NCBI GenBank assembly: GCA_034440615.1
Contig: JAOTOM010004350.1
Location: 55,001 to 119,000 of the forward strand
Source of the DNA: Ashinkailepas kermadecensis
Taxonomy: Eukaryota; Arthropoda; Thecostraca; Neolepadidae
Direction of reading: 5' to 3'
DNA length: 64,000 nucleotides
Shown here in pieces: positions 4,417-57,239 of this stretch. The notes under the pieces are model-generated. The model was not told the DNA's origin. It did no database searches and saw only the letters and a list, made by a program, of their open reading frames with translations. The position numbers and the translations under genes were made by a program. The first letter of the stretch is position 1. Each line of letters starts with the position of its first letter.

Positions 4417-4830
4417 ATGGGACGCAAAGACAGCCTCCCCGAGGACGCTCCGGCGCCGCGCCTGTGTGCCGTGGTCAAGTCGCCCAACTTCCAGGGCTAC
4501 GGCTTCAACTTGCACTCGGAGAAAGGCAAAGAGGGCCAGTTCATCGGCAAGATCGACCCGTCCTCGCCAGCCGAGGCGTGCGGACTGCTCGAGGGCGATC
4601 AGATCATCGAGGTGAACAGGGTCAACACGAGTAATGAGAACCACAAGCAGGTGGTGGAGAGGATCAAGGCGGACCCGGCCAAGGTCGGTCTGCTGGTGGT
4701 GGACCCTGCGGCGGCGGAGTACTACAAGAAGCGCGGTATAGTGGTCAGGGGCAGTCTGGCCAACGTGAAGCACATGAGTGCTGCAAGGGGACAAGACCAG
4801 GAGACGGGCGAGTCAGAGACATCCAGCCAG
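4417..4830 (+). CDS. Nherf1: NHERF/EBP50-family scaffold, first coding exon with PDZ domain
   Basis: NHERF proteins are cortical scaffolds: PDZ domains bind C-termini of membrane proteins and a C-terminal tail binds the FERM domain of ezrin/radixin/moesin, under the apical membrane. Here residues about 15-96 form a complete PDZ domain. The carboxylate-binding loop GYGF is at 27-30, the NHERF-like FNLHSEKGKEGQFIGKI stretch follows, then DPSSPAEACGLLEGDQIIEV, and His76 at the start of helix B predicts class I ligands. Strand 6 is VGLLVVD (90-96). The ATG at 4417 has a strong Kozak context. The exon is taken to end at CCAG|GTGAG after 4830, giving exactly 138 codons (phase 0), but that donor is tandemly duplicated (next GTs at 4874, 4915 and 4959), so the end is ambiguous. 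A second PDZ domain, present in vertebrate NHERF1, was not found in the window. Family assignment is strong; orthology is inferred. Confidence 0.9.
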
Positions 4831-4965
4831 GTGAGAGCATCAGGAGACGGGCGAGTCAGAGACATCCAGCCAGGTGAGAGCATCAGGAGATGCGAGTCAG
4901 AGACATCCAACCAGGTGAGAGCATCAGGAGACTGGCGAGTCAGGAGACATCGGGCCAGGTGAGGA
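4796..4965 (+). repeat. Tandem repeat of the exon-1 5' splice site (4 units, 41-44 bp)
   Basis: A unit reading roughly GAGACGGGCGAGTCAGAGAC, then ATCCAGCCAG|GTGAGAGCAT, occurs four times with small indels. Each copy carries a near-consensus donor, with GT at 4831, 4874, 4915 and 4959; a further CAG|GTGAG lies at 5061. Measured from the ATG at 4417, exon ends at 4830 and 4914 are phase 0, 4873 is phase 1 and 4958 is phase 2. Confidence 0.85.
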
Positions 4966-5065
4966 ATGTAGGAGTGCCAGCGGAAGGTGGTGGGGAGTCA
5001 GGAGACATAGAGCAAGGATGGAGCACCAGGATACAGGAGGATGAGGAGACGTCAAGTCAGGTGAG

Positions 5066-25382: not shown

Positions 25383-26515
25383 TTCCAACTGACCCTCTCA
25401 CCTGGACACTGAACACCAGCCGGCTGACCCTCTCACCTGGACACTGGACACCAGCCGACTGACTCTCACCTGGACACTGGACACCAGCCGACTGACTCTC
25501 ACCTGGGCACTGGACACCAGCCGGCTGACTCTCACCTGGGCACTGGACACCAGCCGACTGACTCTCACCTGGGCACTGGACACCAGCCGGCTGACTCTCA
25601 ACGGGGCACTGGGCACCAGCCGACTGACTCTCACCTGGACACTGGGCACCAGCCGACTGACTCACCTGGGCACTGGACACTAGCCGACTGACTCTCACCT
25701 GGACACTGGACTCCAGCCGGCTGACTCTCACCTGGGCACTGGACACCAGCCGACTGACTCTCACCTGGGCACTGGACACCAGCCGGCTGACTCTCACCTG
25801 GACACTGGACACCAGCCGACTGACTCTCACCTGGGCACTGGACACCAGCCGACTGACTCTCACATGGGCACTGGACACCAGCCGACTGACTCTCACCTGG
25901 GCACTGGACACCAGCCGGCTGACTCTCACCGGGGCACTGGACACCAGCCGATTGACTCTCACCTGGGCACTGGACACCAGCCGACTGACTCTCACCTGGG
26001 CACTGGACACCAGCCGACTGACTCTCACCTGGGCACTGGACACCAACCGGCTGACTCTCACCGGGGCACTGGACACCAGCCGATTGACTCTCACCTGGGC
26101 ACTGAACACCAGCCGACTGACTCTCACCTGGGCACTGGACACCAGCCGACTGACTCTCACCTGGGCACTGGACACCAGCCGGCTGACTCTCACCTGGGAC
26201 ACTGGACACCAGCCGACTGACTCTCACCTGGGCACTGGACACCAGCCGACTGACTCTCACCTGGGCACTGGACACCAGCCGACTGACTCTCACCTGGGCA
26301 CTGGACACCAGCCGGCTGACTCTCACCTGGGCACTGGACACCAGCCGACTGACTCTCACCTGGGCACTGGACACCAGCCGATTCTCCTGGGCACTGAACC
26401 AGCCGACTCCTCACCTGGGCACTGGACACCAGCCGACTGACTCTCACCTGGGCACTGGACACCAGCCGACTGACTCTCACCTGGGCACTGGACATCAACC
26501 AGCTGACCCAATTAC
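25383..26515 (-). repeat. 33-bp minisatellite carrying antisense 5' splice-site consensus
   Basis: About 34 units of CACTGGACACCAGCCGACTG, ACTCTCACCTGGG. On the minus strand each reads CCCAGGTGAGAGTCAG, a near-perfect donor consensus resembling the exon-1 donor at 4831. Variants include ACCGGGG for ACCTGGG and a few short units near 26380. Confidence 0.93.
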
Positions 26516-43352: not shown

Positions 43353-43418
43353 GCACTTTATACATGTGAAGCTGACCACACTGGCAGCCGCTCGATCCAC
43401 CCACTGACCCACAGACAG

Positions 43419-44000
43419 CACACCGAGGTCGCCTGGCAGACTGTCCTGCTGGACTGCCCGGGCCACCAGCCCTCTTCCAGTGACTACACCTCCAATGACA
43501 TCCGCCACGGCGCTAACACCGCCGGCGACTTTCAGACCCATCTGTCGATCGAGGATTGTCTGACGTTCGCGGCGCAGGGCACGTGTGACGACACGCCTCC
43601 GCCAGTGCCGCCCAAGACTGACCTGCTGCTGGAGCAGGGGCATTCCAGCACTGGCCGCAGCTCGCCCCCGCCCGCCCCCGCCCAGGACAAGCCGCCCAGT
43701 GTCGCGTCCGCAGAGGAAAAGCCGCCTGGCGTCGCGTCCGCAGAGGAGAAGCCGTCCAGCGTCGCGTCCGCAGAGGAAAAGACGCCCAGCGTCGCGTCCG
43801 CAGAGGAAAAGCCGCCCAGCGTCGCGTCCGCAGAGGAAAAGCCGTCCAGTGTCGCGTCCGCCAACGAGACTGTCTCGCCGTCGGCGGCGACGGCAGCAGA
43901 AGCGAAATATGATCCTCCACCGACGGAGAGCACTGCCAACTCGTCCGAGGTCACCGGTGTCACAGGGGTGGCGCAAACCTCCGGGGAGTCGGAGGCGGAG
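43419..44000 (+). CDS. Candidate middle exon (Pro/Ser/Ala/Glu-rich linker) of the NHERF gene
   Basis: One frame is open from 43353 to a TAA at 44088, with strongly GC-biased third positions unlike the AT-rich sequence just before it. In order it shows an acidic/Ser-rich segment (SSSDYTSNDI), a proline motif PPPVPPK typical of SH3 ligands, six copies of a 10-residue repeat like KPPSVASAEE, then a Ser/Glu-rich stretch. A possible acceptor ...CACAGACAG|CAC is at 43418 and a weak donor GGCGGAG|GTTGGT at 44000; both are phase 0, matching the PDZ exon (4830) and the terminal exon (52011). Joining 44000 to 52011 gives a natural ESEAE|VESSSE junction. Alternatives are an alternative terminal exon running to 44090, an unrelated gene, or non-coding repeat. 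I saw no recognisable second PDZ domain. Exon limits are inferred. Confidence 0.4.
43684..43866 (+). repeat. 30-bp in-frame minisatellite encoding a KPPSVASAEE-like decapeptide
   Basis: Six 30-bp units of the form GTCGCGTCCGCAGAGGAAAA plus GCCGCCCAGC repeat inside the candidate linker exon. The period is a multiple of three and the differences are few (PPS, PPG, PSS, TPS), so the frame is kept throughout. Confidence 0.85.
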
Positions 44001-44189
44001 GTTGGTGGACCAGTTCCTCAGACGGTGGCGGTTCTTCAGTCTGTGCGCGCGGCTTCTGAACCCGGCTGTGCTGCCGTAGCTGACGTCTAACGCCGCTGTA
44101 CATATCGTCTAGATAGTGGGACCAAGCTGAGCTGACAGGTCTGGTGACTAGTGGCCAGTGACTAACCGTTGCCTGTCTAACCTCCGACT

Positions 44190-50240: not shown

Positions 50241-50529
50241 AGCTCACCCTAGTAACTGCTTTCCACCTCAGACATGACACCCACATCACATCACAGTGTT
50301 GTCCTGCCGGTACCTGCGCAGCCATGCTCAGCACAAGCACATGCTCGATTTTCGGGTAATCTTTCTTTCCAATCACTATTCACTGATTTCAGTGATGGCG
50401 CCTAACAAAGTCTGGTTAGCATAAACATAAGCATAACATTGCTAATTGAAGTGCGTGAAAACTGTTCTTAAATTCCTAACCAAGTTTGAAAACAAATATC
50501 ACCCTGAAAGTGCACCCCCGGCAACTAAC

Positions 50530-52010
50530 CCTACTGCCGTCTGCCCAGGTTGAGTCAGTGTGACCTGACCAATACCCCTCCGGTGACTGACCCTGCTGCC
50601 GTCTGTCCGGGTGGAGTCAGTGTGACCTGACCGACACCCCTCTGGCGACTGACCCTGCTTCCCTCTGCCCAGGTCGAGTCAGTGTTACCTGACCGACATC
50701 CCTCCGGCGACTGACCCTGCTGCCGTCTCCCCAGGTCGAGTCAGTGTGACCTGACCAATACCCCTCCGGTGACTGACCCTGCTGCCCTCTGTCCGGGTGG
50801 AGTCAGTGTGACCTGACACCCCTCCGGTGACTGACCCTGCTGCCGTCTGCCCGGGTGGAGTCAGTGTTACCTGACCGACATCCCTCCGGTGACTGACCCT
50901 GCTGTCGTCTGCCCAGGTCGAGTCAGTGTGAACTGACACCCCTCCGGTGACTGACCCTGCTGCCGTCTGCCCAGGTCGAGTCAGTGTGACCGACACCCCT
51001 CTGGCGACTGACCCTGCTTCCCTCTGCCCAGGTCGAGTCAGTGTGACCTGACCGACATCCCTCCGGTGACTGACCCTGCTGCCCTCTGTCCGGGTGGAGT
51101 CAGTGTGACCTGACACCCCTCCGGTGACTGACCCTGCTGCCGTCTCCCCAGGTCGAGTCAGTGTGACCTGACACCCCTCCGGGACTGACCCTGCTGCCGT
51201 CTGTCCGGGTGGAGTCAGTGTGACCTGACACCCCTCCGGTGACTGACCCTGCTGCCCTCTCCCCAGGTCGAGTCAGTGTGACCTGACACCCCTCCGGTGA
51301 CTGACCCTGCTGCCGTCTCCCCAGGTCGAGTCAGTGTGACCTGACACCCCTCCGGTGACTGACCCTGCTGCCGTCTGCCCAGGTCGAGTCAGTGTGACCT
51401 GACACCCCTCCGGTGACTGACCCTGCTGCCGTCTGCCCAGGTCGAGTCAGTGTGACCTGACACCCCTCCGGTGACTGACCCTGCTGCCGTCTCCCCAGGT
51501 CGAGTCAGTGTGACCTGACACCCCTCCGGTGACTGACCCTGCTGCCGTCTGCCCAGTCGAGTCAGTGTGACCTGACACCCCTCTGGTGACTGACCCTGCT
51601 GCCGTCTCCCCAGGTCGAGTCAGTGTGACCTGACACCCCTCCGGTGACTGACCCTGCTGCCGTCTGCCCAGGTCGAGTCAGTGTGACCTGACACCCCTCC
51701 GGTGACTGACCCTGCTGCCGTCTGCCCAGTCGAGTCAGTGTGACCTGACACCCCTCCGGTGACTGACCCTGCTGCCGTCTGCCCAGGTCGAGTCGGTGTG
51801 ACCTGACACCCCTCCGGTGACTGACCCTGCTCCCTTCTCCGAGTCAGTGTGACCTGACACCCTCCGGTGACTGACCCTGCTGCCGTCTCCCCAGGTCGAG
51901 TCAGTGTGACCTGACACCCCTCCGGTGACTGACCCTGCTGCCGTCTCCCCAGGTTGAGTCAGTGTGACCTGACACCCCTCCGGTGACTGACCCTGCTGCC
52001 GTCTGCCCAG
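50530..52010 (+). repeat. 58-bp minisatellite carrying tandem 3' splice acceptors, abutting the terminal exon
   Basis: About 26 units of period 57-59 bp. The core is GGTGACTGACCCTGCTGCCG, then TCTGCCCAG|GTCGAGTCAG and TGTGACCTGACACCCCTCC. Most units contain a branch-like ACTGAC, a pyrimidine tract and CCCAG|GTCGAGTC; about 20 of 26 keep CCCAG, the others read CCGGGTGGAG or are shortened. The last unit is the genuine acceptor, after which the sequence diverges into exon coding sequence at GTCGAGTCCAGC. Confidence 0.92.
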
Positions 52011-52256
52011 GTCGAGTCCAGCTCGGAGCGCGCGCAGCCGTCGCCGGCGCCGTCGGCCGGCTCCACGGGCACCGTCGAATCGGCCAAGTCAGCCGAGTCA
52101 GCGCCGTCGGGCGGCGAGACGACCGACAAGTTCGGCCTCAAGCTCAACATGACCGCCGCTGAGATGCGCGAGTACCTCAAGACCAAGAAGCGGCACGACC
52201 CGCGCAACGATAACCTCTCGTTCAAACGGCGCCATGAGATCGTCTCCAACATGTAG
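52011..52256 (+). CDS. Nherf1: NHERF/EBP50-family scaffold, terminal coding exon with ERM-binding tail
   Basis: The exon opens at ...CTGCCCAG|GTCGAG in phase 0 and runs 81 codons to TAG at 52254-52256. Residues 1-40 are a Ser/Ala/Pro-rich linker. From about residue 41, KFGLKLNMTAAEMREYLKTK followed by KRHDPRNDNLSFKRRHEIVSNM matches the C-terminal EBP50 region of invertebrate NHERF proteins. The last residues (F-K-R-R-H-E-I-V-S-N-M) correspond to the vertebrate helix that binds the FERM domain of ezrin/moesin and ends in FSNL. The terminal S-N-M could also serve as a PDZ ligand, as the vertebrate tail does. The exon is CpG-rich and follows directly on the acceptor minisatellite. It is separated from the PDZ exon by about 47 kb; that they form one gene rests on strand, phase and family architecture, not on transcript evidence. 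Confidence 0.85.
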   Translation, partial: VESSSERAQPSPAPSAGSTGTVESAKSAESAPSGGETTDKFGLKLNMTAAEMREYLKTKKRHDPRNDNLSFKRRHEIVSNM

Positions 52257-56049: not shown

Positions 56050-57239
56050 ATCCAATGCTGCGGTCAGGGATAGCAGCTAACTAGCATTGACAAGTCGTGT
56101 CAATAAATATTTCAATGTTTGGACATCAATACTACATAGCTTTGGCGGAAATATTTATATAAGGGAGTAATGGGCTACTGAGCATCGATACTTCTTGAGC
56201 GTCGATCGGATCAGGTGCAAAATATAGCTGTTTTTAATGCGGAGTGCCACCGGGACAAGATTCGGAATCATACGGAAAATAATCCCGGTACAATTGTTAG
56301 GTCTCGCTGTTATCGGATGTGACCTAAAATACATTCAAAGGGTATTTCCATTATTATTTTTACACTGGACGCGTTTGACGGATGGTGTTCGCATATTTCA
56401 TAGACACATGTTTATATTAAATTTAGCACCTTAGATTGCATTGAGTTGGATTTTGAAGGCGCGATGCTTGAATGTGGCCCGCTTGCGGTGCACTGTCCGT
56501 TCGCCACCGTCCGCGCCACGTGACAGGACTGAGTGTCCGGCCCAGTTCACTGCAGGACACGCCCAGTTGGAACGCTTACGACCCAACAATGGTAGCGAAG
56601 CTCAGAGCGGCTCGAGAAGAGCCGACAAGCCCGCACGTCGTGCTGTGTTGCGCACTGTCCACCGTTTGATCAGCGTATGTGGCGCGTCGCCTCGCGCACC
56701 AGGACCGCCAGCTGGTGCGACAACCAAGCCGCTCTGCTGGCGTGGGCGCCGCCATTGTAAGGTGGCCGAGCACACATTCTGAACCGCTTCGCAACCCAAG
56801 CCGAGTCAGGTGATGGCCGACTGGGACACTGGCGAGTCGCAGACAAGTTTGGTCTGTCGACCGCCTCTCCCCTCGGCTCATGTATACATGCATGCGCGAA
56901 CGTGTTCTGTGTCTGCTGATTGGTGTAAATACTTGTGCCGGCTTACGTAATCAAAGCACACCGTGCTACACTGGCCGTACGCTGATCGTGTGTGCCGGTT
57001 TGTGATGGTTGTCCAGCGCCCATTTCACAAATCATGTATACTCTAATCAATCTGTAAATACATTTATTTCGCCGAGTTATACTCGTCCTGGGCGGTACGA
57101 CGACATATCGGAGACCTCGGCGGCTGTGCCGGACGAGCTGGGAGTTGGCCGCGCTTACGATCCGTCTTCACCACCAGCAAATCTGGAAGTGTTCGGCGAT
57201 TGCCGTTACTGGAAGAAGGATGTTGGCTTAGCGAAATAT
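56050..57239. other. Unique sequence, no gene recognised
   Basis: 57064-57240 has an open plus-strand frame of ordinary-looking protein composition (includes PDELGVGRAYDPSSPPANLE) that runs into the LINE end; no family recognised. Confidence 0.3.

Follow-up and report, generated by a model that had tools for sequence, protein, structure and literature searches.

A minisatellite, presumably that of the 6-16/IFI6 gene, reportedly supplies, going by the title of the paper, splice donor sites to the transcript. Minisatellite-like duplications of intron-exon boundaries, termed mirages, have been described in lancelets, both in Adh3, BflGb6 and BflGb9 (PMC3087553) and in troponin C and PGBD5 (PMC3902484). 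According to these reports, mirages seem not to interfere with regular splicing, and the copies could serve as cryptic sites (PMC3087553); those in Adh and troponin C generated no aberrant mRNAs (PMC3902484). In two further papers, AGGT sites are reported to act as both donor and acceptor in tandem repeats of UBC and VCX3A (PMC10809524), and tandem repeats at the exon-intron boundaries of human segmental duplicates alter splicing (PMC2812944).

In the present work a 64,000-nucleotide stretch of DNA from the arthropod Ashinkailepas kermadecensis (the whole of it being referred to below as the window) was analyzed. In a putative NHERF-type gene of this window each of the two exon boundaries is crossed by a tandem repeat of its own, which takes in eight exon bases at the acceptor and, ahead of the first donor, 33 (Table 1).

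Table 1. Features of the putative NHERF-type gene and of the arrays at its junctions (window coordinates)
Feature	Position	Strand	Basis	Remark
Exon 1 (first coding), putative	4417..4830	+	PF00595, NHE-RF1 similarity, frame, phase	PDZ domain
43-bp minisatellite, 3.9 copies	4798..4963	+	TRF, donor list	across exon-1 donor
58-bp minisatellite, 26 units	50524..52018	+	TRF, unit splitting, alignment	intron end + 8 exon bases in each unit
Terminal coding exon, putative, VESSS...HEIVSNM-stop	52011..52256	+	EBP50_C match, paralogous tail in genome	ERM-binding-tail-like

Results

A putative NHERF-type gene

The assignment of the gene to the NHERF type, proposed earlier in a sequence-only reading of this DNA, was supported by its PDZ exon and, below the family cut-off, by its tail exon. 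Exon 1 matched PF00595 with 49.5 bits (cut-off 23.2), and the best matches of this PDZ exon among PDB sequences were to NHE-RF1 (E 1.8e-27). Its start codon is probably the ATG at 4417, and its 3' end, placed by frame and phase at the first of several donors, is in phase 0. The terminal exon matched EBP50_C with an E value of 7.1e-4 and 21.0 bits, which is under the family cut-off of 25; the alignment spans profile positions 51-128 of 128, i.e. it runs to the very end of the profile. A second NHERF-type tail exon, 48% identical to that of the window, was found on another contig (locus L004, contig C4378, about 660-1600). Its open frame contains two tandem repeats of 21-bp units (coding repeats), and TRF reported no many-copy array directly upstream of it.

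The structure of the gene is taken from frame and homology and should be read as predicted. As both junctions are in phase 0, exon 1 could be joined directly to the tail exon, 47 kb away; a crude motif scan of the open frames of the window gave six hits, only exon 1 having a PDZ-like look. The sequence from the stop codon to position 56102 contains no AATAAA. An open frame on the + strand at 43353-44090 (245 residues, ending in TAA) contains 5.9 copies of a 30-bp unit that keeps the frame (10 residues per copy) and has no Pfam match; it might belong to another gene or serve as an alternative final exon.

The acceptor array and its decoys

The array preceding the terminal exon is unmistakable, yet arrays in general are common here, minisatellites making up 21% of the window. 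TRF described it with a period of 58, 25.6 copies, 90% matches and a score of 2368, and a script split it into 25 whole units (50-62 bp) and a final partial unit which enters the exon. As seen in the unit alignment, CTGAC (CTAAC in unit 1) lies about 20 nt upstream of CCCAG as part of a branch-like ACTGAC (ACTAAC in unit 1), most units have a pyrimidine-rich tract ahead of CCCAG, and CCCAG is followed by GTCGAGTC, the first eight bases of the exon, or by a near variant. The unit is thus, as had been proposed from the sequence, a duplicated intron end with its branch-like motif and the first eight exon bases.

The CCCAG was kept in 20 of the 26 units, in agreement with the earlier estimate of about 20; 19 of these are decoys, and the last, which ends at 52010, was taken as the real site (junction 52010|52011) because the frame of the exon meets a TGA (51984-51986) eight codons upstream. 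Between this TGA and 52011 the only AG is that of CCCAG. An exon start at 52011 is therefore supported by the reading frame, although it could conceivably lie deeper inside the exon. The units which have lost CCCAG are 2, 5, 6, 10 and 12, with the CCGGGTGG variant in common, and unit 23, through a deletion. Over positions -25 to +8 (33 nt), five of the 25 upstream units were identical to the real site, and 12 differed from it by at most one base. Variation across the units was uneven: the ACTGACCCTGCT and GAGTCAGTGTGACC blocks are near-invariant, while the intervening tract and the AG vary most, the AG columns having a conservation of 0.86 against 0.97 in the other columns.

The sequence-only reading had every decoy lead to VESV and a stop in phase 0. 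This held for 16 of the 19; the decoy of unit 3 would yield VESVLPDRHPSGD-stop, and those of units 18 and 21, in which one G is absent, SSQCDLTPLW/R-stop. All 19 nevertheless met a stop within 13 residues in phase 0, a translation which supports the predicted loss of the tail upon use of any decoy. When the four stop-free donors were combined with the 20 acceptors, the tail frame was kept in only two of the 80 combinations, those of exon ends 4830 and 4914, each with acceptor 52011.

The donor array at exon 1

The mirror image of the acceptor array, absent from the earlier reading, was found at the donor of exon 1. Copies of CAG|GTGAGA have their GT at 4831 (phase 0), 4874 (phase 1) and 4915 (phase 0), and a fourth copy, CAG|GTGAGG, at 4959 (phase 2); GT was retained in 3/3 copies. 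An additional CAG|GTGAGA at 5061 lies beyond the 43-bp array and behind in-frame stops. The five exon-1 donors scored alike (6.7-6.9 on an approximate matrix).

A further array, of 33-bp units, occupies 25395-26494 on the - strand; most of its 33.6 copies carry CAG|GTGAGAG on that strand, and no coding exon adjoining it was seen by inspection. Either chance or a former junction array, now orphaned, could account for it.

Arrays at other junctions in the genome

The assembly searched comprises 907.7 Mb in 4,689 contigs. Its arthropod origin is shown by 150 scored matches to PF00379, a cuticle domain characteristic of arthropods. In a DNA search of it that skipped very common words, no second allele with a different unit number was seen. 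Minisatellites with a period of at least 10 occupied 0-56% (mean about 20%) of 16 stretches of 10 kb from three contigs (L009-L024).

Splice junctions were surveyed in kinase genes. From 138 matches, 72 exons with 450 bp on each side were hand-picked (both ends inside the domain, no internal stop, room on the contig; matches in long open frames were mostly omitted), and approximate weight matrices served to call the splice sites. A near-identical copy (L055) was dropped, leaving 71 distinct exons, among which one acceptor (L032) and three donors (L028, L041 and L087) were uncalled. Arrays ran across five of 70 acceptors and nine of 68 donors, i.e. 14 of the 138 called junctions. The spanning arrays have units of 27-95 bp, each array holding 2 to 14 copies. 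By eye, two of the 14 calls (L088 and L090) appeared weak; in the survey as a whole, the donors called at L040 and L049 were open to doubt. Long donor arrays in kinase genes were seen at L091 (614-1070, 14.2 copies) and L092 (624-975 on the reverse complement of the locus, 11.1 copies). L055 (contig C1771) and its counterpart L054 (contig C3231) carry the same 3.3-copy donor array and differ at the called donor, which reads GTACGG in L054 and GTAGGG in L055; they may be haplotypes or a recent duplicate.

Two more arrays were found on contig C4648, where the exons were assigned by reading frame alone. At L002 (1-3320), 60 copies of a 55-bp unit, each with CCCCAG| and 24 exon-like bases, stand immediately before an open frame, and at L014 (2141-2336, - strand) about four copies of a 46-bp CAG|GTGAG unit, with variants in some, sit at the end of an open frame resembling a membrane protein. 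Junction arrays are not specific to NHERF: roughly a tenth of the sampled junctions are spanned by an array, and the sample suggests that they are frequent in the genome. Their presence at 14 of 138 kinase junctions points to a general mutational process rather than to a switch particular to NHERF.

A general enrichment of splice motifs in array units was not counted as proof. CAGGTRAG occurred in three of 100 arrays (0.37 per kb, compared to 0.07 in non-repeat DNA and 0.006 in shuffled units), but the exon-1 array accounts for one of these three.

Chance or focus at junctions

With arrays so common, some junctions are bound to fall inside them. Among 60 exons, array coverage on the acceptor side was 21-30% beyond 40 nt and dropped to 7% at the junction itself; at donors it was 13% at the junction compared to 12-21% deeper. 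A simple junction hot spot is contradicted by this coverage, which is not higher at junctions; what is enriched there are array ends. Within 45 nt on either side of the junction 33 exon-proximal array ends were counted, against 27 in the next 205 nt (46-250 nt), a density ratio of 2.75 (bootstrap 1.81-4.29; p 8e-5, array ends being treated as independent in this and the following p values). The 45-nt zone was picked after the first 60 exons had been viewed; these gave 25 ends vs 23 (p 0.0017), and the 12 later exons 8 vs 4 (p 0.011). By side, the density ratio was 5.2 at donors and 1.9 at acceptors, where the interval touched 1.0; the combined excess persisted under five threshold sets. Gaps between neighboring kinase matches (17 pairs picked from the listing) were 263-3930 nt long with a median of 954, so that the control zone is mostly intronic. 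Taken together, these data support, with moderate strength, a higher rate or a better retention of tandem duplications at splice junctions, and above all at donors.

Discussion

Origin of the arrays and choice of the splice site

The analysis shows the repeat, the copied sites with their reading frames and the recurrence of such arrays at other junctions. We believe, with fair though by no means full confidence, that the NHERF array is a mirage: a minisatellite born on the junction, in which the decoys are mostly ignored and splicing takes the exon-proximal site. Tandem duplication of a stretch across the intron-exon junction would have started the array, which would then have grown and been homogenized by unequal exchange or slippage. 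Such a history would leave most copies with a branch-like CTGAC, a pyrimidine-rich tract and CCCAG, and an intact exon behind the last copy; the exon-1 donor would have gone through the same process. The choice would mostly fall on the site closest to the real exon, probably by exon definition, and leakage to decoys would give tail-less VESV-stop products at a low level at most. Exon definition pairs sites across the shortest exon, which would yield an exon-proximal rule; in a last exon, the 3' end/poly(A) machinery would take the partner's role. We infer a mutational origin of the array, an exon-proximal choice and a low leak.

Because the real site shares its sequence over 33 nt with five decoys, a local signal cannot explain the choice. 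RNA structure marking the real site was likewise rejected: in the predicted folding the real AG was unpaired at 0.37, compared to 0.19 +- 0.14 for the decoys with one decoy higher, and there was no clear distinction at 52010. Since local sequence does not set the real site apart from these five, and folding does not do so clearly, what remains is position, i.e. adjacency to the exon, which holds for both kinds of site. A more sweeping proposal is that minisatellites are born preferentially on junctions, leaving about one junction in ten with a tail of decoys, that the exon-proximal copy is chosen by a distance rule, and that the unit number in NHERF tunes a small tail-less fraction; as a whole we hold this to be rather unlikely.

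Selection against decoys was set aside as well, AG/GT having been kept in 118 of the 135 decoy copies of 14 arrays (59/59 in L002 and 59/76 in the others). This set consists of the NHERF acceptor and donor arrays, L002, L014 and 10 kinase arrays, those kinase arrays found later not being part of it. The AG columns of L029 have a conservation of 0.60 vs 0.82 elsewhere, AG being intact in one of five copies, and this lower conservation, together with that of the NHERF array, could reflect some selection against decoys. In most remaining arrays the AG/GT columns are conserved equally well or better than the others. The five CCGGG units of the NHERF array have a single variant in common and so do not represent five separate losses, which partly accounts for the lower AG conservation there. 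The survival of most decoys implies that they do little harm, or that homogenization outruns selection.

Other explanations

One possible explanation for the decoys is a rheostat, in which their use grows with the number of units and gives rise to a PDZ scaffold lacking the ERM-binding tail. The five decoys identical to the real site agree with it, as do the early phase-0 stops of all 19 (within 13 residues) and the mere two of 80 combinations which keep the tail frame, and as far as the sequence goes a copy-number-tuned, tail-less NHERF is possible. The recurrence of arrays in many kinase genes speaks against it, as it indicates a general process, and so do the lancelet junction arrays, which are reported not to disturb splicing (PMC3087553, PMC3902484); we therefore regard the rheostat as distinctly improbable. 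The intron might instead be removed stepwise (recursively), a decoy being used first and the rebuilt CAG|GT then serving as the donor for a splice to the real site, whereby errors would be repaired. AG|GT is present in most units, and two-way AGGT sites are documented in tandem repeats (PMC10809524). However, CAG|GTCGAG is a weak donor, and the best of the other donor-like sites inside the array score 2.4, compared to 6.7-6.9 for the exon-1 donors on the approximate matrix, which makes recursive removal very unlikely in our eyes.

It may also be argued that the array is an ordinary intronic minisatellite which merely abuts the exon, its likeness to a splice site being incidental. Minisatellites make up about 20% of the sampled genome, the window holds an array of some 33 units, most of them with CAG|GTGAGAG, on the other strand without a visible adjoining exon, and array coverage at junctions is not above that inside introns. 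Yet the repeat contains the first eight bases of an exon whose frame is closed eight codons upstream, and the density of array ends is raised in the 45 nt around kinase junctions on either side (ratio 2.75, 1.81-4.29); we give such a coincidence very little chance.

Significance

Identical sites which differ only in their distance from the exon are what minigene studies build by hand. A natural, repeated supply of them, at donors as well as acceptors, would make the rule of choice measurable by RNA-seq of a single species. If the birth of arrays is truly focused on junctions, it bears on changes in intron length and on the origin of introns, and gene models in such genomes may put exon ends wrongly.

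Comparison with known systems

Like the minisatellite of 6-16/IFI6, the acceptor array repeats a splice site, but the sites there are said, by the title, to be donors provided to the transcript, whereas here they are putative acceptors. As in UBC and VCX3A, tandem repeats here multiply splice signals, with AGGT in most units. The introns of UBC and VCX3A are whole multiples of the unit, spliced at both ends (PMC10809524); here, in contrast, each unit is intron-derived except for eight bases, and its donor half scores weakly on the approximate matrix. The human segmental duplicates resemble our case in that their exon-intron boundaries carry minisatellites, of about 30 bp, and splicing patterns there are changed; they are recent primate paralogues with transcript evidence, while the arrays described here are known from DNA alone (PMC2812944).

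The closest likeness is to the lancelet mirages, in which tandem repeats also lie over a 5' or 3' boundary, AG/GT are copied and the exon is intact. Those occur in a cephalochordate and these in an arthropod, and the BflGb6 haplotypes have six and three units compared to 26 here. Unlike the lancelet mirages, the arrays here affect both the donor and the acceptor of one gene, and 14 of 138 sampled kinase junctions. No arthropod junction array was found in the literature at the level of titles and the beginnings of abstracts, a coverage far from complete, and the main text of a Daphnia repeat survey (PMC3152781) contains no word beginning with 'splice'. The mirage is a known kind of structure; what may be new is its occurrence in an arthropod and its frequency of about one in ten sampled junctions.
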